A stretch of DNA of 64,000 bases from Nitzschia sp. pyKryTriq1 (lineage: Eukaryota > Bacillariophyta > Bacillariophyceae > Bacillariales > Bacillariaceae), in assembly GCA_956465555.1 (NCBI GenBank), contig OY101115.1, positions 2,914,001-2,978,000 on the forward strand. Direction: 5' to 3'. The notes beneath the pieces are model-generated. The model had not been told where the DNA came from. It saw only the letters and a program-made list of their open reading frames with translations, and ran no database searches. Shown in pieces: positions 1 through 57,096 of this stretch (the first letter of the stretch is position 1; each line of letters starts with the position of its first letter). Made by a program: the position numbers and the translations under genes.

Positions 1-1897
1 TCTTTCTTCTTAGTGGCGGCAGGTTTCTTGGGGGTATTGGGGGCGGGTTTTGACGCGGGTGCTTTTCGAGCCGGGGCTGGGGCTGGTGCCGGGGGCTCGC
101 TGCTACCAAGACCCAGAGAACCTCTAGTGTTTGCCATGGCGACATCCTCCAGCACACTTGCCTGTTGCTGTTGTTGGAGTTGCTGTTGCTGTTGCTGCAA
201 CTGTTGCTGTTGATACAAATTCATCATCAGCGTTGTCTCTTGGATTTCATTGAGCAAATTCATGTGATGGAGCTTCAACATTCTGAATATTTGAAAGGAA
301 AAAATATGAGTTAGCTTTCGAAATTGAGAGAAACAAAGAACAAAATCTTTCTGGGATGGCACTTACTCGTAGTGTCTGCACGAATGTGTAAGGAACGAAA
401 CAATGGAACTCGCTGGTGAGATACTCCTCAATGAATGGTGTAAGACTTCCGGCAGAATTTCATGACTTACTGGTTGGGGTTCACAGACAGGCCCATTTGC
501 ATACCACTTCCACCACCCATGCTCAGACCCAGACCAGATGCCCGCCGCTGTTGTTCTTCACGCTTTTGAGCGTAGTGATCCGCACGAGCGGCTTCGTAAG
601 CGGCTGCTGAGCCCCCTCCCACCAAGGGGCGATGGGGCGGCATGGACGTTTCATGCGAATCCACCAAACCCAAGACTGGACCAAGTGAACCTAGCGAGCC
701 TCTACGATTGAGATCCCTATCGCTCATCATAGAAAGTCCCAATGAAGACGAGCGTCGTTGCATAAGGCTGTCCAACTCGGCAGTGGAGGACGACCAGCCC
801 ATATTCATGACACCTGCGGCTGGTTGCTGAGAACTCCCGCCGCCGCTGGTTGTTGGGATCGGGGCTGCACACAAAGGGATGTGGTGAGGTAAAGGTGATT
901 GGCAGGTATGGATACATCTCAACACAAACTGCAAGGAACTAAACTCACCACTAGCTGGTTTCTTTTCGAGGACCGGCTCATGCTCGTCGTCTTCACCTGC
1001 TTTTCGACCTAGCCGACCACTCACAACACGGACCCCCAGACTCTCTAGTTCCAGCATGACCCAATCCCTGCTAGGTTTTGGTCGCATTGTGCTGCGCCAT
1101 GCCCGAGTCAGTGCTTTGGCTCTGGCGCATTTTTCATCGGCTTCGGCCGAAGGAAACGTTCCGAGAGCAATCGTTTTTCCAGCCCACTGAAATCAAAATG
1201 TGAGGATCGATCGAGAACAACATGAGTGTGGGCAAAAAAATATCAAAATATGTCTGAGATGACGTCGAAGATGTGCCCAAACGATCCTGACGGGCGGTTT
1301 CACAACGGCGATACGTCAGCATCCGAACAGCCCATTTAACGAAATCACGCCACCAAACAGTAATATAACGCCCGATTCTAGAGGTCGGGGTCACAAACAG
1401 AAAACAGCGGCGTCGAAAATGGCTTCGTCTCGAGGCATTTTGAGCGGAAAACCTACTAGGAAGTCGTAGAATGTACGAAGTACCATGAATGGAGACGATG
1501 ACCCGTTTTCGTGCTCAACAACCTCCTCATGATGACTTCAAGAAGTCTTTTTCGTTTTTCGGCCCGGTCATCTCAAAACAAAGTCATTGTGTGGAACGAC
1601 AACATACAAACAGCTCTGTCACAAATTGGAGAAGCCGTCGCAATTTTCGAAACTCTGTTTCATCGGCATTCGATCTTCCCAGCAGTTTCTCATGTAGCAC
1701 AAAATAATATTGAACCCGCTATAAACCCGTGATATAATATTGGATTGCACGTTCGTCGTAATCCAACGTAATTTGCCCGAATAAGCGAAAACAAACCTGT
1801 AGGCGCCAACGAGGGGGGGGGGGCTCACCTTTACATGGACCGCTTTCTTTCCCGGTCCACTTCCATTATTAAAACTTCCTGATTGGGTAACGCTCAT
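1..1897 (-). CDS. AP2/ERF-like domain protein with polyQ tail (3' end outside window)
   Basis: Spliced model, minus strand: 1897-1829, 1186-949, 864-471, an optional 9-nt exon 375-367, and 282 running off the window start. All junctions are GT-AG and keep phase. The first splice joins KKAVHVK to WAGKTIALGTFPSAEA, which reads like the second half of an AP2/ERF DNA-binding domain (GK..LGTF..AE..A). It is followed by a basic segment (ELESLGVRVVSGRLGR), a Ser/Gly-rich middle, a helical MLKLHHMNLLNEIQ segment, a long Gln tract (about 230-170) and a Pro/Ala/Lys-rich tail. A transcription-related role is inferred from the domain resemblance only. The first intron is long (642 nt) and has an 11-G run just inside its donor. 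Confidence 0.55.
170..230 (-). repeat. CAG/CAA repeat coding polyglutamine
   Basis: A run of CAA/CAG codons on the minus strand (CTG/TTG on plus) codes an almost pure Gln stretch, broken by Leu, in the AP2-like protein. Tracts like this are prone to length change. Confidence 0.8.
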
Positions 1898-23683: not shown

Positions 23684-24521
23684 AGAGTTAACTCGCACCG
23701 AATTACTCCACGCCAAACGGTTGTGGCCGCAAGAGATCTCCGCAAACTTATGGCCGTACGCGCTCCGCATGGCCAACGAAAGCATCAATGCAACGCCGAA
23801 CATGGCGGACAAAACACGAAGGACTCCAAACCAAATGTTCTCCGGCAGCGACGTCGCCGACAATCCCAAGAACTGGAGACACTTCGGTTGCCCAACGTAC
23901 GTGCTCGACAGGGCGCTACGCGGTTCTACCGGGATCCATCACAAGTGGAGGGACAACCCGACGCAACGAAATCACTGGAGGTCTACGTCGATGCAGATTT
24001 CGCAGGAAACTGGGATCCGGAGCTTGCAGGTAAAGATCGTTCCACCGCGCGATCAAGGCACGGTTATTTCATTTGCTACGCGGGAATTCCCATCGCATGG
24101 AAATCTACACTACTGCAGCAAGAAATCGCCTTATCTTCGACAGAAAGCGAAATCACCGGCTTATCATATGCCCTCCGAGAAGCCATCCCAATTATTAGCT
24201 TATTACGGGAAATGAAGAAGCGTGGTTTCGAGATAAACACTTCACGCACCGAAGTGCACTGCAAGGTGTTTGAGGATAATTCCGGGGCTATCGAGATCGC
24301 ACGATACCACAAGTTCCGCCCCGAACCAAATTCCTCAACAACAAACTCTTCCACTTTAGAAGCTACGTCACGAAGGGTTGGATCTCAATCCATCCTATTG
24401 GTACCTACGACCAACCGGCAGACATACTGACCAAACCGTTGAACGAGCCGGATTTCAAGCGTCACCGAAAGAGCATGAACGGATGGTAATCGACTCCTCA
24501 CTGCCTACTCGCGAGAGGGAG

Positions 24522-43400: not shown

Positions 43401-46400
43401 TCACAAGTCCTCCGGGCGTTCTTCAGCTGACAGAACTTTCCTTGCCGTGTCGCCCACCACGCTGTCAGCGACTTGCAGCTTCTTCCCGACAAGTTTCTCC
43501 ACTGCTTGGGTGAGGGCAGTGGCATCAAAACCGTACTCTCTCATGAGATATTCACAGCTCGCCCCATGAGCATAGACCCCGGGGACACCCAGTCGTACAA
43601 GTTTCTTACCAATACCATGTTCGGCGAGGACTTCGGCTGTTGCCGATCCAACACCTCCAACGACACTGTGATTCTCCATGACGATAATTCCATATTTCGC
43701 CTTCTTGGCTGCTTCGATGACGTTATGCACAGGGAATGGAACTATCGTGGACAAGTGAAGATGGTAAATTGACACCCCTGACGACTCGAACGTTGCCATG
43801 ACCTTAAGCGCTTCTTCTGTGCAAAGGCCAGACGAAACTAGTGCCACATCAGTTCCGTCCGATAACATGCGCGCAACGCCATATTTCATTGGAGCTGTCT
43901 TGGGGAAAAGCCTTGGAACTTGACCTCTCCACATGCGAATGTAGACCGGGCCATTGATGGATTCGGCCACATCCAGGACTGATTCTACTTCGGTGGCATC
44001 CCCGACTTCTAGGATCCGCATGTTCGGAATTGCTCTCATGAGTGCCACATCGTCAATCGCTTGATGCGTAACACCACCGGGAGTCGTCAAACCTGGCAAG
44101 AATCCTAACAATCTCACTGGAAGGTTCGGCACGCCAATCGACATGGCGACTTGATCGAAAGGACGCCTCGTTACAAAAACAGCAAAGGTATGAATATAAG
44201 GATGATAGCCTTCCCGTGCTAGGCCACCCGCGAAGCTCATCATGTTCTGTTCTGCCATTCCAAGAGACATGTATTGATTAGGAAGTTCGTCTCGCAATAG
44301 ATCCGCCTCGCAGGATGAGGTCAAGTCAGAAGTTATAACAATGGCTTTCGGATGTGACTTTGCCCATTTTAGAAGATTCGTGCGGTGTGGCCTAGTAACC
44401 ATTTCGGAAGTACTCCATGTGGGAACAACCTCTGCCACGGACGACTCTGATTCCGTTGCAAGGCCACCCACTCTCTTCTTGACAGGCGCAGACATTTCTG
44501 ACACATCTAACTTTCGCTTGATTTGACTTCTGCCCTCCTTGTCCTTAGACTTCTTCTCTTCTCCCCTACTACAAGTAGGGGTCTTTTCATTGGACCCATG
44601 ACTTCCATCTTTCATCTCCACGTCCATTTTTGCTAGAATTTCTTTCCAAGTGTTTTTCTCTTTCGCATCGTTGAATCGAACATAGTGTAGCTTAGGCGCT
44701 CGTTCTTTCAGCAGAGGAAACCCCTTGCAGGGATCTGTGTAGCAGAGGACTACCGTTGGCCTGGTTTCGTCGTGAGACTTTACAGCTGCTTCAACCTCTG
44801 CCACATCGTGCCCGTCCACTTCCTTGACAATGGCACCAAAGGCCTCGAGCCTGCGCGCTAGATTTCCAATGTCCATCACGTCGGACATTTTACCGTCACA
44901 TTGTTGCCCATTGACATCCACAACCGCGGAGAGATTTCCAATTTTGTGGAAGATCGCAGCTTGTATGGCTTCCCAAACCTGTCCTTCTTGAAATTCACCA
45001 TCGGACATGTAAACAAAAACACGACCAGTGTGTCCCTTCAATTTACGGGCGTATGCGATGCCGGCTGCCTGGCTCAATGCTTGCGCTAAACTGCCCGCAG
45101 TCACGGCATGACCGGGAGAATGTTCTGCTCCGATCAGCTCCACCGTACTTCCGTCCTTATTGTAGCTGCGAAGGGCGGTACTGTTCAACCGGCCCACTTC
45201 GACGAGTAGCGAGTACAAGACCAAGGCATAATGGACGGGGGAAAAGATGAGGCGATCCAAGCTTGGATCATTGAAATCGCCATTGTGTCCTTCTCCTGTA
45301 ATGGTCTCGACCGTGGGACCTGGGCAACCCCGAAATGGTCCCGGCATGTCTGACGCAATACTTGGCCCAAAGTTGAGAGCACGAAGATACAGGGTTGCCA
45401 ATGTTTCAGCCGAAGAGCAAGCTTGGCTTAGGTAGCCTCCATTGTTGTAGAGAGTGTATTCGAGGACACGTCTCCGCACGGCCATGGCAACTTTCTCGAC
45501 GTGATCAATGGAAGGAATCTTTCCCGTTTCGGTTGCAGGTTCTTTGGAAGGTGGTGTAACAACGGAGGGAAGCTCATCTTTAGCCTTACCGAGTGCATGG
45601 TAGGGTTGATCCCGACCAGCAAAGTGCCCAAACAGATTGGCATCGGCTTGTAGATCCGGGCCTTGCTCCAAAAGAGCCCCTCCAATGAGAAAAAGAGTAT
45701 CATCACCAAATGTTCTGCGCATGTCTTCGACCCTTGGCAACTTCATTCCTCCCGCAGGACTGGGTAGGATGGGGCGCATGCGTCCCATTGGCCTCCGACA
45801 TCCCTCGGCAACGGCTTGACATTCTTTTGGTGTAAATTGGAAACGGCCTCCCGCATTTGGAAAAATGACGGCGTCTGCACCACAGAGTCTTGGTAGAACA
45901 CCGAACAAGAATTCATGAGACAACCCATGGGGATGATGGATATGACTAGACAAACTCAAGTCGTCCTCATCGTCCTCACTTTCGAGCCATCCTCCCAATA
46001 GAGCTGGATGCACGAGAATGGGTAGATTGAAGTCTGGGTCGGCTGCCAATTCTCGCAAGACATCCCAACCCGAAATGCCCGGCAACACCATGGCAGCTCC
46101 CGCGCCAACTTGTTTGGCATATCGAGCCCGTTCGAGAATCTTGCCGACAGCTGCATTTAAACAGGGGGCATACAAAGATGTTTTGCCGGTTTCCTTGTTG
46201 GCTTTGAGAACCGCCTCGGCACATAATTTGACGCGTTCTTCAAAGGGTGCCCACACCTGATTAGCGAGCCCATGATCGTCCTTGATTATATCAATTCCTC
46301 GTTTGGCCAGGGAGTAGGCCATTTTGGCAAAGTCTTGTGCCGACGCTCCCATTGGCTTTAATGCAGTACAGAGAAGCGGCGCTTGGGGCACTCCCAGCAA

Positions 46401-46859
46401 GTCCCGCAAGCCTTGAATGCCGAACTTTGGTCCAGGAAACATTTGCGTATCTAATTTGAACTGATCGCTGAGCCTAATATTGGCCACCGATACGCCTTTT
46501 TTGAGTGACGTATTACCAAAAACAACGTTCAAGAACTGCGTCAACTCGTTTCCTGCGGTCGCATTCGGAAATCCTACTGTGACGCGATACAATTTATTCT
46601 TCTGCTGATTCTTCGAAACAGAAGCGACAGAAGTAACCTCCTGAACGAGCTCAACTTTACCCACCGTATACGCTTCGACTTGTTTGACGACATCAATCTG
46701 TCCCGGCAGCTCAACAGTTTGTTCCAGACACAGTTCTCTCCCCAATTTACGGGCATGTGCTGCCGAGTCGGCTTCCATGACATAGTCCACCCAAAATCGT
46801 TCGGGGTGAGGGACCTTCGCGGCCGCATAGCGGCTCTTCTTGTTTTCGAGGGAGTTCAT
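43401..46859 (-). CDS. fusion of RuBisCO-like protein (form IV) and transketolase
   Basis: One uninterrupted frame of 1152 residues, no intron. Residues about 20-430 are a RuBisCO-like protein: LLCTALKPMGA holds the K175-type Lys (168); DIIKDDHGLANQ holds the K201 Lys (193) and D203 (195), with His where E204 would be; then VHPALLGGW, AVIFPNAGGRFQF, PSPAGGMKL and LIGGALL. The K334 loop-6 Lys is absent, so CO2 fixation is not expected. This KDDHG pattern resembles bacterial form IV proteins such as 3-oxo-isoapionate-4-phosphate decarboxylases. Residues 455-735 are a transketolase TPP domain (AEHSPGHAVTAGSLAQALS; SDGEFQEG; VDVNGQQ). A charged linker (740-815) follows, then the pyrimidine domain with catalytic Glu870 in GMAEQNM, TPGGVTHQAIDD, and the C-terminal domain. 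No targeting signal is seen, so it is probably cytosolic. Confidence 0.92.
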   Translation of the reverse strand: MNSLENKKSRYAAAKVPHPERFWVDYVMEADSAAHARKLGRELCLEQTVELPGQIDVVKQVEAYTVGKVELVQEVTSVASVSKNQQKNKLYRVTVGFPNATAGNELTQFLNVVFGNTSLKKGVSVANIRLSDQFKLDTQMFPGPKFGIQGLRDLLGVPQAPLLCTALKPMGASAQDFAKMAYSLAKRGIDIIKDDHGLANQVWAPFEERVKLCAEAVLKANKETGKTSLYAPCLNAAVGKILERARYAKQVGAGAAMVLPGISGWDVLRELAADPDFNLPILVHPALLGGWLESEDDEDDLSLSSHIHHPHGLSHEFLFGVLPRLCGADAVIFPNAGGRFQFTPKECQAVAEGCRRPMGRMRPILPSPAGGMKLPRVEDMRRTFGDDTLFLIGGALLEQGPDLQADANLFGHFAGRDQPYHALGKAKDELPSVVTPPSKEPATETGKIPSIDHVEKVAMAVRRRVLEYTLYNNGGYLSQACSSAETLATLYLRALNFGPSIASDMPGPFRGCPGPTVETITGEGHNGDFNDPSLDRLIFSPVHYALVLYSLLVEVGRLNSTALRSYNKDGSTVELIGAEHSPGHAVTAGSLAQALSQAAGIAYARKLKGHTGRVFVYMSDGEFQEGQVWEAIQAAIFHKIGNLSAVVDVNGQQCDGKMSDVMDIGNLARRLEAFGAIVKEVDGHDVAEVEAAVKSHDETRPTVVLCYTDPCKGFPLLKERAPKLHYVRFNDAKEKNTWKEILAKMDVEMKDGSHGSNEKTPTCSRGEEKKSKDKEGRSQIKRKLDVSEMSAPVKKRVGGLATESESSVAEVVPTWSTSEMVTRPHRTNLLKWAKSHPKAIVITSDLTSSCEADLLRDELPNQYMSLGMAEQNMMSFAGGLAREGYHPYIHTFAVFVTRRPFDQVAMSIGVPNLPVRLLGFLPGLTTPGGVTHQAIDDVALMRAIPNMRILEVGDATEVESVLDVAESINGPVYIRMWRGQVPRLFPKTAPMKYGVARMLSDGTDVALVSSGLCTEEALKVMATFESSGVSIYHLHLSTIVPFPVHNVIEAAKKAKYGIIVMENHSVVGGVGSATAEVLAEHGIGKKLVRLGVPGVYAHGASCEYLMREYGFDATALTQAVEKLVGKKLQVADSVVGDTARKVLSAEERPEDL

Positions 46860-49889: not shown

Positions 49890-50562
49890 GGGAGATCTAA
49901 TGAATGAGAATGGGCTACAAGTACCTGTATGATACCTACCGGTAGAATAGTTGCTGTTTGTGGTAACGGCAACTGCGAACATGTACCTCTGCCCAAGTTC
50001 GAAGTCGACGCGGTCATTGTCGTCAAAAACGCTCGACTCGTACCCCCGGTAGACAGTAGACAACACATATATTCTTCGTATGATACAGTACATACTGTAC
50101 AAGTACAGTACGTGCGTGTACTGGTATATACTGTACGAGTACCAGTGCAGTACGTAATGTATCAGTACTTGTACAACGTACAAGCGCAAAAGACACCGTC
50201 GCGCGCGGCGTCGATGCGCCACGCATCGGCTGGGTACAATTAGTCGGTTGAGTCGATTATTCGTCGTCGGACTTGCGACCTGTTCGATCACAGAGTAATT
50301 CTTTCTTCTTTTACAGAAAAAAAGGAACGTTGGAAGCAGAATTTTGTCGACGTGACGTGCCCACGACTGCGCAAACGCACGCGAATAATACAGAAGAAAT
50401 ATCGGTACCGGTATGTATGTGAGGGACTACTCCTACCGGTACCGGTACCACTCCTCCTTCCTTCATGTATGTACACGTCTATTCGTACAACACAGAGGAA
50501 CACAGAAGCAAACAAGTGAATTGCTTGCTTGCTTCACATACCGGTATCCCCCTAGAGTCATC
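49890..50562. other. divergent promoter region between YIF1 and AAAP transporter 1
   Basis: GTAC-rich tracts at 50080-50185 and 50403-50455, with a purine/pyrimidine mix elsewhere. An in-frame ATG at 50413 upstream of the transporter lies inside the repeat and is not used. Confidence 0.5.
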
Positions 50563-52167
50563 ATGGCAACGACTTTGCCAGGAAGTGAGCCAGATCCTGA
50601 GGTTGCTGGTCTCGTCGCCGGCGACGAAGAATCGTCAACTCCTACCGTAGAGCTATTGGCATGTGATGATGCACATGCACATACACATGCACACGCGGAA
50701 GGCAATCATCCGACGGATGGCAGTGCGACGGCGGAACATGGATCAACCGTATCCGAGGCCACGTTCAATTTCACCAATTCGATTATTGGTGCTGGTGCCA
50801 TCGGCTTGGGAGGTGCCATGGCTGTTTCGGGGGGTTTGATTTCGGTCGTACTGATTTTGTTCTTTGGTTATTTGACCAAACGGTCTTTGGACATGATCAT
50901 TCGACTGTCGATAGAGACCGAAGGAGCACACGGTTCCTACGAAGACCTAGCTCAGGTTGGACTAGGACGTCCAGGCAGATTGTTGGTCATGGTCTGCAAG
51001 CTTCTTTATTCCTTTGGATGCTTGGTGGCCTACATTGTGGTCATCAAGGATAATTGCGCCCCTGCGCTTCGAAACTTAATATACGGAGCCAGTGATCATC
51101 ACAGCAGGGAGGACTGGTTTCACGAGATACTAACAAGCAACTCATGGTTCACTTGGTTGGTCAGTCTCGTTTTCATTCTCCCTCTATGTCTCTTACGAGA
51201 CATGACGCCTCTGGCCAGCTTGTCCGTCGTGAGTGTCGCCTCCATGATCTCGATCGTCGGCATAGTCGTCTACATGTACTTTTTCTGTCCAGAAATTGAC
51301 CTTGCTGGTGGCTCTTTCTACGATAAATGGATTCAAGTCCGGCCGGGGGTCTTGGAGAGCCTGGGAACATTTGTCTTTACATTTGTTTCGCAGCATACGG
51401 TTCATTTGGTATTCGACTCCCTCAAACCGTCGCTGCGCACAGTGCCCAAATGGAAAATTGTTTCCACCTACTCCTTGGGCAGCGCCACAGCAGTATCACT
51501 CTCTGTGGGTGTTTTTGTGTACATGACATTCTGGGAGGCCACCAAATCAGATGTCTTTGAGATCTACCCACAGGGGTGGATGATCGATGCGGCAAAGCTT
51601 TTGCTTTGTGTCACCATGGTCTTGACCTTTCCTCTTCCCTTTTTTACCTGTCGGGACTTACTGATCGTTACCTTTATCCATCCTTTCTGTGGTATTAGCC
51701 ATAATGTAGAAGACTCAACGGATCCCTCTGATATGGTCGAGAATGAATTGCAGGTACCGTTGTTGGACACTAGCACAGACGAGGCGTCCAACGATAGCAA
51801 CATCTCTGGAAATGCGTCGATAGCAACAGAGATCTCTCGACGAATCCGGGATACTGTTACCCCCAAGAATTGGTTGCTACCCGATGACAACCGCCAACTA
51901 CAGTTTGTTGGTCATGTCGGACTGACAGTGAAGCTTTGGATTATCACCACGGGGTTGGCCATTGCGGCTCCTTCCCTTGGCGACGTCTTGAATTTGGTGG
52001 GATGCGCCACGGGCACCATTATTGCCTTTTTGTTACCTGCCCTGCTGTCGTTCAAACTTGAAGGGTATTCTCATATTGCCATGGTTATCTTTGTGGTGGG
52101 CGCTGTCGTCGGAACAGTGGGCACGTTCTTCAGTCTCAAGAAACTTTTCCAAGATTTAAAGATATAG
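50563..52167 (+). CDS. amino acid/auxin permease family (AAAP, SLC38-like) transporter, copy 1
   Basis: One exon, 534 residues from ATG 50563. A cytosolic acidic and His-rich N-terminus (DDAHAHTHAHAEGNH) precedes the first span with the family start motif FNFTNSIIGAGAIGLGGAM. About eleven membrane segments follow, including GRLLVMVCKLLYSFGCLVAY, ILPLCLLRDMTPLASL and LNLVGCATGTIIAFLLPALL. The unwound first helix with N-x-x-x-G-x-G and the late L-x-x-x-G-x-x-x-G-x-x-x-x-F-x-L-P are typical of Na/H-coupled amino-acid carriers. The substrate and membrane are unknown. The His-rich N-terminus may bind metal, which is a guess. Its stop is 37 bp from the convergent glycosyltransferase stop. Paralogue at 55488-57096. 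Confidence 0.88.
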   Translation: MATTLPGSEPDPEVAGLVAGDEESSTPTVELLACDDAHAHTHAHAEGNHPTDGSATAEHGSTVSEATFNFTNSIIGAGAIGLGGAMAVSGGLISVVLILFFGYLTKRSLDMIIRLSIETEGAHGSYEDLAQVGLGRPGRLLVMVCKLLYSFGCLVAYIVVIKDNCAPALRNLIYGASDHHSREDWFHEILTSNSWFTWLVSLVFILPLCLLRDMTPLASLSVVSVASMISIVGIVVYMYFFCPEIDLAGGSFYDKWIQVRPGVLESLGTFVFTFVSQHTVHLVFDSLKPSLRTVPKWKIVSTYSLGSATAVSLSVGVFVYMTFWEATKSDVFEIYPQGWMIDAAKLLLCVTMVLTFPLPFFTCRDLLIVTFIHPFCGISHNVEDSTDPSDMVENELQVPLLDTSTDEASNDSNISGNASIATEISRRIRDTVTPKNWLLPDDNRQLQFVGHVGLTVKLWIITTGLAIAAPSLGDVLNLVGCATGTIIAFLLPALLSFKLEGYSHIAMVIFVVGAVVGTVGTFFSLKKLFQDLKI

Positions 52168-54909: not shown

Positions 54910-55487
54910 GACGTTGACGAATCCTCACTCCGTACGAATGTTGACGGCAATGAGTGCTTGTATGTAACAACGATACAATAGTATTACTGTAGTTGATGAA
55001 CTTTGGCATGTTTTAACAGCTATATCTCGCGCGTCCTTCGTTGCATTATTCACAACATCATCATGAGATTTTGTCGTCCTCCGTCCGCTCCCCCCGAAAA
55101 AATTCGAATTTGAGGGTTGGCCGGCCGGCGTAAAATTCCCGCCGACTGGCGCAAATACACGCATGAAGCACGGCTAAACACTGTAGAGCTTGAATGAAGC
55201 TTGAGACTGGATCACACCACGACTTCTTTCAAGCCTACAAAGATATTATTTTCACGATCTAGCTACTGTATGGTCTTCAGGTCTTCTCCCTCCAGTATTC
55301 TCCAGTATCCGCATCCTCCTCCCTTTCGTTTGTTTCTCTCCCCCTCTACTCAAACTAAAAGAGCCAGTCGTCGTCCACAAATACAGTATATCACGGTTCG
55401 AGTAGCTTCACAGCTTCTCTCGTCGGCGGCGAGGCTCAAGAACCAAATCGTTCTTGTTGCCCATCAAAGCAGTTGATCTGGTTTGAT
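54910..55487. other. divergent spacer between the GT7-GT31 gene and AAAP transporter 2
   Basis: No gene is seen. It includes GC-rich GGCCGGCCGGCG at 55121-55132 and a pyrimidine-rich stretch at 55270-55350, about 140 bp before the transporter start. Confidence 0.45.
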
Positions 55488-57096
55488 ATGACTACCGAGG
55501 CGTTGTTTCATCATCGAGGACATGCGGATCATAACGAGTACGGATCTATCCATGAAGAACAATCATCAAACAGGCCTTCCAGCAGCGGAGAAGACACGGT
55601 GCCACTTCAGCTCGGCACTTTGGATTCGAGCGACAATCTGCAAGCGGATCATGATGATGATCCAGGTTCGGGGTGGGTCGGAGCCGCTTTCAATCTCACG
55701 AGTGCTATAGTGGGGGCAGGATGCATCGGCCTCGGGGGTGCCATTGCAAATTCTGGTGGTCTTGTTTCGTTTGTGGCCATTTCGGTGTTTGCCGTATTAA
55801 GCAAATACTCCTTCGATTTGGTGGTGGATCTTGCCATCGAGTCGCAAGATGCTAGGGCAACCAACTACGAGAGTCTGGGACTAGTGACGTACGGGCACGT
55901 GGGCAAAATGACCGTCATCATTTCCAAGGGTCTCTACTCGTTCGGATGTTTGGTGGCCTATATGGTGATTGTCAAGGAAAATTTTGCCTTGGCATTGTCA
56001 CATTTGCTATTTGGATGTAATACGGACGACGACGACGACAGCAGTGCGGACGATCATGTCGTGCCAACAGGTGCTCTCGAAAATATTCTGACAAATCAGT
56101 ACTTTGTCACCATTTTCTTTTGTACAGCTGTCATGCTGCCACTATCTATGCTGCGGGACATGACACCGTTGGAACGGTTTTCGGCTTTGAAGATTACAGT
56201 TGTTTGTTTTATTGTGGTTATTGTGATCTACCTATTCTTTGTTGTCAGTGATCGTCGACAAGAGACTGATTTTGTGAATCACTGGCTAGTCATTCATGGG
56301 GGAGTCTTTGAAAGGTGGGTGCCCGCAAAAGTTAGACTTTCTCGGCGCTCGACATACTTTCCCTTCTAACATCGTCAAATCACGGATACTCATCAGTTTG
56401 GGTACCTTTGTCTTTGCATTCGCCGCACAAAACGTTATCCATTTGGTATATCAGTCGCTCAAAAGAAGTCAACAAAAAAACTTTTCAAAAACGACTACAT
56501 TGGGTACAATTTTGAGTACGATGATCTCGCTGTCCATTGGATTCTTTGTGTACATGACATTCTGGGAGGCCACTACATCAGATATATTTTACCTGTACCC
56601 AAATTCCAGGGCAGTCGACATGTGTCGCATGCTGCTTTGCATATCTATGCTATTGACGTATCCATTTCCATTCCTGACTGTGAGGGAGCTTTTGGTATTG
56701 CTATACGTTGGTGGTGCCAATGACCTACAAGGAGTACATGGCGGTGATCGACAATCGATTGATGGAACACAACCGTTGGTTGGAAACACTTTCCACGACG
56801 AGAGCGACTCGTGGCTTCTTCCTGGAAGCGATCGACAACTGAAACAAAAGTATCATATTATTCTTACCTTTCTGCTTTGGCTTTTTACGCTCATTCTTGC
56901 TCTGGGAGCTTCAAGCCTGGGGACGGTACTGAATCTCACGGGATGTGCGACGGGAACTATTATCTCCTACATCCTTCCAGCTTTGTTTTCTCTAAAACTT
57001 AGAGGACATACTGCTCTGGGGAGTCTCCTCTTTCTACTGGGTGGCTCCGTGGGTATTGTTGGAACCTACTACAGTGTACTCGCTCTTTTTCAATAA
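55488..57096 (+). CDS. AAAP (SLC38-like) transporter, copy 2
   Basis: Two exons, 55488-56314 and 56397-57096, phase 2, giving 508 residues from the first ATG. The splice restores GGVFESLGTFVFAFAAQN, matching copy 1 at the same site (VLESLGTFVFTFVSQH). The first span reads FNLTSAIVGAGCIGLGGAI, and later blocks (LYSFGCLVAYMVIVKEN, LPLSMLRDMTPLERFS, GFFVYMTFWEATTSDIF, LNLTGCATGTIISYILPAL) are colinear with copy 1. The cytosolic N-terminus is His/Asp-rich but different. Copy 1 lacks this intron, so it was gained or lost after duplication. Stop codon 11 bp from that of convergent NMD3. Confidence 0.9.

Follow-up and report, generated by a model that had tools for sequence, protein, structure and literature searches.

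The closest described counterpart of the gene reported here is the methylthioadenosine (MTA)-isoprenoid shunt of Rhodospirillum rubrum and Rhodopseudomonas palustris, which employs a RuBisCO-like protein (RLP) of the DeepYkr type, RLP1, together with a cupin, 1-methylthioxylulose-5-P methylsulfurylase; the chemistry of RLP1 and the subsequent cupin step are covered in PMC5893883. OiaX, the 3-oxo-isoapionate-4-P decarboxylase, belongs to the same form IV RLP superfamily but to a different clade, and its genes are neighbored by those for a sugar transporter and aldo/keto reductases. With respect to transketolases (TKs), the relevant comparisons are with ordinary TK (EC 2.2.1.1) and with the split-chain TK of Carboxydothermus hydrogenoformans (PDB 6yaj, 6yak), which, like most of the bacterial RLP operons considered here, has two TK chains. 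The gene, which lies in a 64-kb stretch of diatom DNA (the window), encodes an RLP of the same clade, and with the same catalytic-type residues, as that of the shunt; the likeness extends upstream, to the MtnA product, and no clear ARD is present in the bacterial genomes searched. It differs in that a TPP-dependent, TK-like enzyme stands in the place of the cupin, with both steps in one polypeptide, and a different reaction is therefore expected. We propose that the fusion is probably a two-step enzyme of MTA salvage, the RLP half of which would make 1-methylthioxylulose-5-P and the TPP half of which would cleave it to glyceraldehyde-3-P.

The fusion is confirmed as a genuine gene, sited amid eukaryotic genes, with a eukaryotic eL18 gene at a distance of 1.2 kb. 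It is read as a single ATG-to-stop frame (Table 1), which is unbroken and contains no N; an earlier note on this DNA had described an RLP and a TK fused in one intronless gene, and the last term stands for one open frame, which is all that the word covers here. Both sets of domains were found on searching Pfam/NCBIfam, i.e. a RuBisCO large-chain catalytic domain (residues 147-395, 8e-23) and TK domains (residues 534-716, 829-981 and 994-1114), with no cupin domain in the same search. The codon usage of the whole fusion correlates with that of six pooled genes of the window at 0.91, compared with 0.73-0.95 for the members of the pool taken singly (values that are inflated by membership) and 0.58 for eL18, which is outside the pool. 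The lower value for the RLP half alone (0.72) than for the TK half (0.90) favors an artefact, i.e. two genes joined in the assembly or a bacterial contig, but the uninterrupted frame, the codon usage of the fusion as a whole, the nearby eL18 gene, and the recurrence of the RLP-then-tkN order in two bacterial loci make such an origin highly improbable. No relative was found in the viral contigs searched.

Table 1. Features of the fusion gene, in window coordinates. The operon alignments hold 54 sequences each, from 57 tkN and 58 tkC proteins, the remainder being outside the length limits.
Feature	Coordinates	Strand	Basis
Complete fusion gene (1152 codons and a stop)	43401..46859	minus	open frame and Pfam/NCBIfam
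RLP half, residues about 20-415, DeepYkr type	45615..46802	minus	search, tree, clade residues
His196, clade mark at RuBisCO Glu204 site	46272..46274	minus	alignment column
RLP-TK linker, residues 416-455, frame open throughout	45495..45614	minus	
tkN (TPP-binding) part, residues 456-735	44655..45494	minus	
Tyr476 at human TK His37 site	45432..45434	minus	Tyr in 54/54 aligned operon tkN
Ile576 at human TK His110 site	45132..45134	minus	Ile in 54/54 aligned operon tkN
SDGE, TPP/Mg motif, residues 619-622	44994..45005	minus	
tkN-tkC linker, lysine-rich, residues 736-822	44394..44654	minus	sequence reading
tkC (pyrimidine-binding and C-terminal) part, residues 823-1135	43455..44393	minus	
Glu870, TPP-activating, equivalent to human Glu366	44250..44252	minus	
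Leu921 at human His416 site	44097..44099	minus	Leu in 54/54 aligned operon tkC
Gly928 at human Asp424 site	44076..44078	minus	Gly in 54/54 aligned operon tkC

Judged by its sequence, the first half is a form IV RLP, as had been proposed, of the DeepYkr-type clade that includes the cupin-linked RLPs and PDB 3qfw, which we take to be R. palustris RLP1. Phylogenetic trees unite it with these proteins to the exclusion of MtnW, Photo, OiaX, and form I; the clade, of 21 rows, has support of 100/99, with the MtnW rows as its sister (100/98), and support of 100/100 in a second tree built from 97 of 122 rows after nearly identical sequences and excess outsiders had been dropped. All of the clade residues are present (K168, K193, D195, H196, R339-F340, and C347), including the three and the His at the Glu204 site picked out in the earlier note; the His196 column has His in 93/93 other clade rows and Glu in 28/28 RuBisCO-family rows outside the clade, OiaX included. 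The catalytic-type residues of 13 cupin-linked rows match those of 74 further rows; a TK is present in the locus or genome of 73 of the latter, and none was found for the remaining one (L065). Assignment of the window RLP as MtnW, the DK-MTP-1P enolase, is contradicted by a score of 146 bits, below the cut-off of 513.6, with the TIGR03332 model and by His196 replacing Glu. We infer that the RLP half is a 5-methylthioribulose-1-P 1,3-isomerase.

Relatives of both halves are present in bacteria, as the earlier note led one to expect, and commonly as neighboring genes: tkN and/or tkC occur in 54/80 loci of the closest bacterial relatives of the window RLP, 47 of 52 same-strand tkC matches have the RLP gene within 350 bases of their end, and the view that the two enzymes are functionally linked is supported. 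By clustering, mtnA is present in 18/80 and mtnK in 10/80 of these loci, 14 and 8 of which, respectively, also have a TK. In Clostridium ljungdahlii the RLP gene row includes MtnK and MtnA, both above cut-offs, the kinases of loci L008 and L085 are above the methylthioribose kinase cut-off, and the order mtnK-mtnA-tkN-tkC-RLP is found on four annotated Rhizobiaceae plasmids. The majority of the RLP loci, many of them on short contigs, have no mtnA or mtnK within reach, and no host MtnA or MtnK is in view within the window. At the genome level, MtnA is present in 49/50 RLP-bearing genomes (above cut-off in 48), ARD in 3/50 at only ~28 bits, and MtnB above cut-off in 1/50, a contrast that is weakened by 14 control genomes, of which 2, 2, and 8 have ARD, MtnB, and MtnA, respectively, above cut-off. 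Because bacteria pair the two genes, in some cases beside methionine-salvage genes, recycling of a sulfur-containing sugar is probable, rather than the D-apiose role that was suggested at first. Both protein families do have members involved in apiose breakdown (on the RLP side, according to PMC6302742), but the window RLP lies outside the OiaX group at full support, scores 92 bits with the OiaX model, compared with a cut-off of 700, and has bacterial relatives that neighbor methylthioribose genes (mtnK and mtnA) in genomes nearly all of which have mtnA; channelling of apiose or another branched sugar is, on this evidence from the RLP and its neighbors, very unlikely.

The TK and the cupin come close to excluding one another. 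Among 70 genomes, which are related and in many cases incomplete, one has both, 12 have the cupin only, 52 the TK only, and 5 neither (Fisher p = 7e-9), TK being counted as a tkC match with at least 58% identity or E <= 1e-90, and cupin at E <= 1e-17 or so (weakest 1.2e-17), a cut chosen after the table had been seen; a looser cupin cut gives 3/12/50/5 (p = 2e-7). Four genomes covered by the cupin search only (G341, G357, G383, and G417) were excluded. The genome with both, G029, and the five with neither by the queries used count against the MTA-salvage proposal; G465, scored as having neither, has a tkN piece at a contig end (L050), and the cupin match of G004 contains an internal stop. No weight is placed on the 10 partner changes seen on the RLP tree, because it leaves many of its forks unresolved and the TK label was in a few cases given by default. 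A Nitrospirae MAG encodes an RLP-cupin fusion (L072, 7884-9605), with no TK match at 1e-40 in its genome; in this protein an RLP of the same clade is likewise joined to the putative next enzyme, the partner being a cupin rather than a TK-like enzyme.

The second half is, on sequence grounds, a member of the TK subfamily found as split genes beside the closest bacterial RLPs. Its fold family, domain order, and catalytic Glu are as in the Carboxydothermus TK, but the groups to which the two belong are split at an SH-aLRT value of 100, and the His and Asp that Carboxydothermus keeps at the human 416 and 424 sites are Leu and Gly in the window subfamily. Relative to ordinary TK, the TPP/Mg motif and catalytic Glu are kept, as are human TK Ser345 and Arg474; His37, His110, His416, and Asp424 are all replaced, and the earlier description of a complete TK is therefore true of the TPP core only. 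These four pocket residues are listed in an active-site model around the X5P-TPP adduct in PMC8016368. Ordinary tkN paralogues, analyzed as controls, retain the donor-site His37 and His110 in 13/13 cases, the window being gapped at the His110 column in this smaller alignment; at the other two sites the ordinary paralogues vary (His416 in 7/14, Asp424 in 10/14). The loss of His416, presumably a phosphate-side residue, would be unexpected were the 5-phosphate bound in the usual manner, and counts against the MTA-salvage proposal.

In the proposed MTA-salvage mechanism, the RLP half would convert 5-methylthioribulose-1-P to 1-methylthioxylulose-5-P, as its clade suggests and as R. palustris RLP1 does. 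The latter compound is an analogue of xylulose-5-P. Acting in place of the cupin methylsulfurylase, the TPP half would add TPP to its C2 and, to judge from the gene neighbors, the near exclusion, and the pocket residues, break the C2-C3 bond, so freeing glyceraldehyde-3-P. The remaining enamine might then lose methanethiolate from C1 to give acetyl-TPP, in a manner analogous to phosphoketolase, which expels water, with acetyl-TPP proceeding to acetate, acetyl-P, or acetyl-CoA. Tentatively, the TPP half may be a new enzyme, a methanethiol-releasing ketolase (1-methylthioxylulose-5-P to glyceraldehyde-3-P, an acetyl unit, and methanethiol), acting in an oxygen-independent MTA salvage pathway in many bacterial phyla that is fused, and perhaps channelled, in a eukaryote. 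Neither a paper linking the RLP to the TK nor an assay of a protein of the combined module was found.

It is also conceivable, if unlikely, that after cleavage of 1-methylthioxylulose-5-P the intermediate is protonated to 2-(methylthio)acetaldehyde, or that an acceptor aldehyde takes up the C2 unit, with methanethiol being released later or never. Such an outcome fits ordinary TK chemistry, 2-(methylthio)acetaldehyde being a known product of a parallel aldolase route (PMC5893883), and aldolase/dehydrogenase genes are present in several RLP gene rows; they include the four Rhizobiaceae rows, where an aldolase/dehydrogenase that might cleave the same sugar phosphate counts against the proposed role of the TPP half. 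Direct release of methanethiol is, by contrast, weakly favored by an O-acetylhomoserine sulfhydrylase homologue (cluster C12) in 4/80 RLP loci (L016 by model scan, the others by clustering), two of which have a TK in the locus, with the remaining two having a TK elsewhere in the genome (L077) or a cupin (L026). A substrate of the 5-deoxyribose series, derived from 5'-deoxyadenosine, would be converted by the RLP to 1-deoxyxylulose-5-P and cleaved by the TPP half in a DXS-like reaction run in reverse. MSP enzymes show promiscuity toward 5-deoxyribose phosphates (PMC8102628), and the Ile at the C1-OH site would accommodate either a methyl or a methylthio group equally well, but the exchange partner is a cupin resembling the one whose known substrate is the methylthio compound (PMC5893883). 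The L008 and L085 kinases also speak for a methylthio sugar, and we consider a 5-deoxyribose substrate quite unlikely.

The synthesis of very long-chain polyamines yields MTA, and the host, being a diatom, would therefore have a plain demand for MTA salvage. Diatoms make such polyamines for silica, as set out in PMC6302742. The RLP and TK pair would represent an unrecognized branch of the salvage of sulfur and carbon, one that operates without an oxygenase, extends from Clostridium to Rhizobium, and is present in a eukaryote as one gene. If this is true, methanethiol would gain a biological source, and TPP enzymology a new reaction.

The earlier note had claimed a single frame fusing a RuBisCO-like protein (RLP) to a transketolase (TK), and this frame was confirmed, running from ATG to stop without N. 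The genes around it are eukaryotic in type (Urb2, HMG box, UCH/zf-UBP protease, Rad51-like and YIF1), and a ribosomal eL18 gene, the top PDB matches of which are eukaryotic ribosomal proteins, lies 1.2 kb downstream. Codon usage of the fusion (GC3 0.50) correlates at 0.91 with that of six pooled window genes (RLP half 0.72, TK half 0.90); single pool genes give 0.73-0.95 against their own pool, values inflated by membership, and eL18, outside the pool, gives 0.58.

Features of the window and of bacterial loci around RLP relatives (L numbers)
Feature	Location	Strand	Remarks
RLP-TK fusion gene	43401-46859	-	1152 codons
RuBisCO large-chain domain	fusion residues 147-395		Pfam, 8e-23
Three transketolase domains	fusion residues 534-716, 829-981, 994-1114		Pfam
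Lysine-rich linker between TK parts	44394-44654		nuclear-localisation-type look by eye
Amino acid transporter genes beside fusion	50413-52167, 55473-57096	+	two similar genes by appearance; Pfam scan covered the first
Frame resembling copia-type retrotransposon RNase H	23723-24430		by eye
Phosphoribulokinase/uridine kinase-family gene	L118:3542-4588		immediately ahead of cupin-linked RLP
RLP + cupin frame	L072:7884-9605		573 codons
LsrF-like thiolase	L048:10069-10857		408 bits (cut-off 297)
Pyruvate dehydrogenase E1 + E2 genes	L040:9521-14189		after RLP; Pfam scan

The solved structure closest to the window RLP is 3qfw (4e-56), followed by MtnW 2zvi (3e-37). Scanning GTDB genomes with the window RLP and 3qfw confirmed at least 541 relatives, of which the best 80 were kept. 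The window RLP falls inside a clade of these bacterial relatives and 3qfw (78 of 97 rows, support 100/100); in a form I-rooted tree, its 21-row clade (100/99) is sister to the MtnW rows (100/98), with Photo, OiaX-like and form I rows all distant. The form-tree check proposed for this half groups it with 3qfw, beside MtnW and away from form I, in trees where no row is known as form II or III and several outside rows carry no label. His196 is common to all 93 other clade rows, with Glu there in 28/28 rows outside the clade. Because the position of the window RLP within the clade is poorly resolved, no donor phylum can be named.

Among the loci of the best 80 of at least 541 relatives, 54 contain the TPP-binding TK part (tkN) and/or the pyrimidine-binding and C-terminal part (tkC), 49 of them both, mostly directly upstream of RLP. 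The fusion order is RLP-tkN-tkC, versus tkN-tkC-RLP as the common bacterial order, from which L050 and L068 (RLP then tkN) also depart. No RLP-TK fusion was found among 55 bacterial loci having RLP, tkN and tkC; L058 has tkN fused to tkC.

In the TK-C tree the window TK half groups with 54 operon rows, apart from 15 ordinary rows, several of them long branches (SH-aLRT 100). Relative to human transketolase, the window TK half and 54/54 aligned operon proteins (54 of 57 tkN and 54 of 58 tkC aligned) carry Tyr in place of His37, Ile for His110, Leu for His416 and Gly for Asp424, and retain Glu366, Asp155 and Asn185; Ser345 is Ser in 53/54 and Arg474 is Arg in 54/54 operon proteins. In ordinary paralogues from 14 hand-chosen places in the same genomes, His37, Lys75 and His110 are intact (13/13 tkN), with His416 (7/14) and Asp424 (10/14) less constant. 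Excerpts of PMC8016368 include these pocket residues in an active-site model around the xylulose-5-P adduct.

The gene row of C. ljungdahlii reads sugar ABC transporter, MtnK, MtnA, tkN, tkC, RLP, and four annotated Rhizobiaceae plasmids carry a regulator, aldolase/SDR, ABC transporter (other strand), mtnK, mtnA, tkN, tkC and RLP. By clustering, in the best 80 of at least 541 relatives, mtnA occurs in 18 loci (14 with TK) and mtnK in 10 (8 with TK). We surveyed 50 of the 80 RLP genomes, picked mainly for long contigs, and 14 controls. MtnA is present in 49/50 versus 9/14; ARD in 3/50 (all ~25-28 bits, two above the 27-bit cut-off) versus 5/14 (two above); and MtnB above cut-off in 1/50 versus 2/14, some MtnB match, mostly a weak class II aldolase hit, occurring in 35/50. 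The oxygen-dependent standard route thus appears incomplete beyond 5-methylthioribulose-1-P in the surveyed RLP genomes, which is support rather than proof, since ARD and MtnB are rare in controls too. RLP would act at this point; R. palustris RLP1 yields 1-methylthioxylulose-5-P, which a cupin then converts to methanethiol and DXP, according to excerpts of PMC5893883.

Other neighbours were observed. The LsrF-like thiolase near the RLP/TK module of L048 belongs to cluster C13, found by clustering also in L018, L036 and L043, and an LsrR/DeoR-type regulator (cluster C9) was scanned in L038; a tie to AI-2-phosphate-like breakdown is possible. Pyruvate dehydrogenase E1 and E2 genes follow RLP in three Chromatiaceae (purple sulfur bacteria), L040 and, by clustering, L051 (with one small intervening frame) and L054. 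A class II aldolase adjoins RLP in Lachnospiraceae L070 (scanned) and L079 (clustering); the genome search of G041, the L070 genome, matched neither RLP-linked TK nor cupin.

Excerpts from the full-text literature, which covers no preprints and few subscription journals, contained no paper joining RLP with transketolase, and within that scope the module is undescribed. Two papers matching both RLP and diatoms name RLPs solely among their cited references. Excerpts of PMC8102628 mention a promiscuous transketolase for 5-deoxyribose salvage, a related yet different idea.

The L118 RLP, the tree neighbour of 3qfw (97/84), is directly followed by a cupin, and no TK was found in the 12 kb read or, at 1e-40, genome-wide. 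With the L118 cupin and C. ljungdahlii tkC as queries, 70 genomes (sets of 51 and 19) gave TK only in 52, cupin only in 12, both in 1 and neither in 5 (p = 7e-9). A Nitrospirae MAG encodes RLP and cupin as a single frame (L072), with no genome-wide TK match at 1e-40. Catalytic-type RLP residues in 13 cupin-linked rows (12 found, plus 3qfw, which we take to be cupin-linked) match those of the 74 remaining rows, and for 73 of these 74 a TK is present in the locus or genome.

Xylulose-5-P is the usual transketolase donor, and 1-methylthioxylulose-5-P, in which methylthio replaces the C1 hydroxyl, is a candidate substrate of the TPP half. Human His110 and Gln428 face the donor C1 hydroxyl; a TPP enzyme in which that histidine has become Ile suits this compound. 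Cleavage would release glyceraldehyde-3-P, and for the remaining C2 unit phosphoketolase-like loss of methanethiolate is tentatively favoured, on the chemistry and on OAH sulfhydrylase homologues in 4 loci of the best 80 of at least 541 relatives (model scan for L016 alone). On the simplest reading, cupin and TK, each seen once fused to RLP, are alternative second enzymes for the same RLP product.
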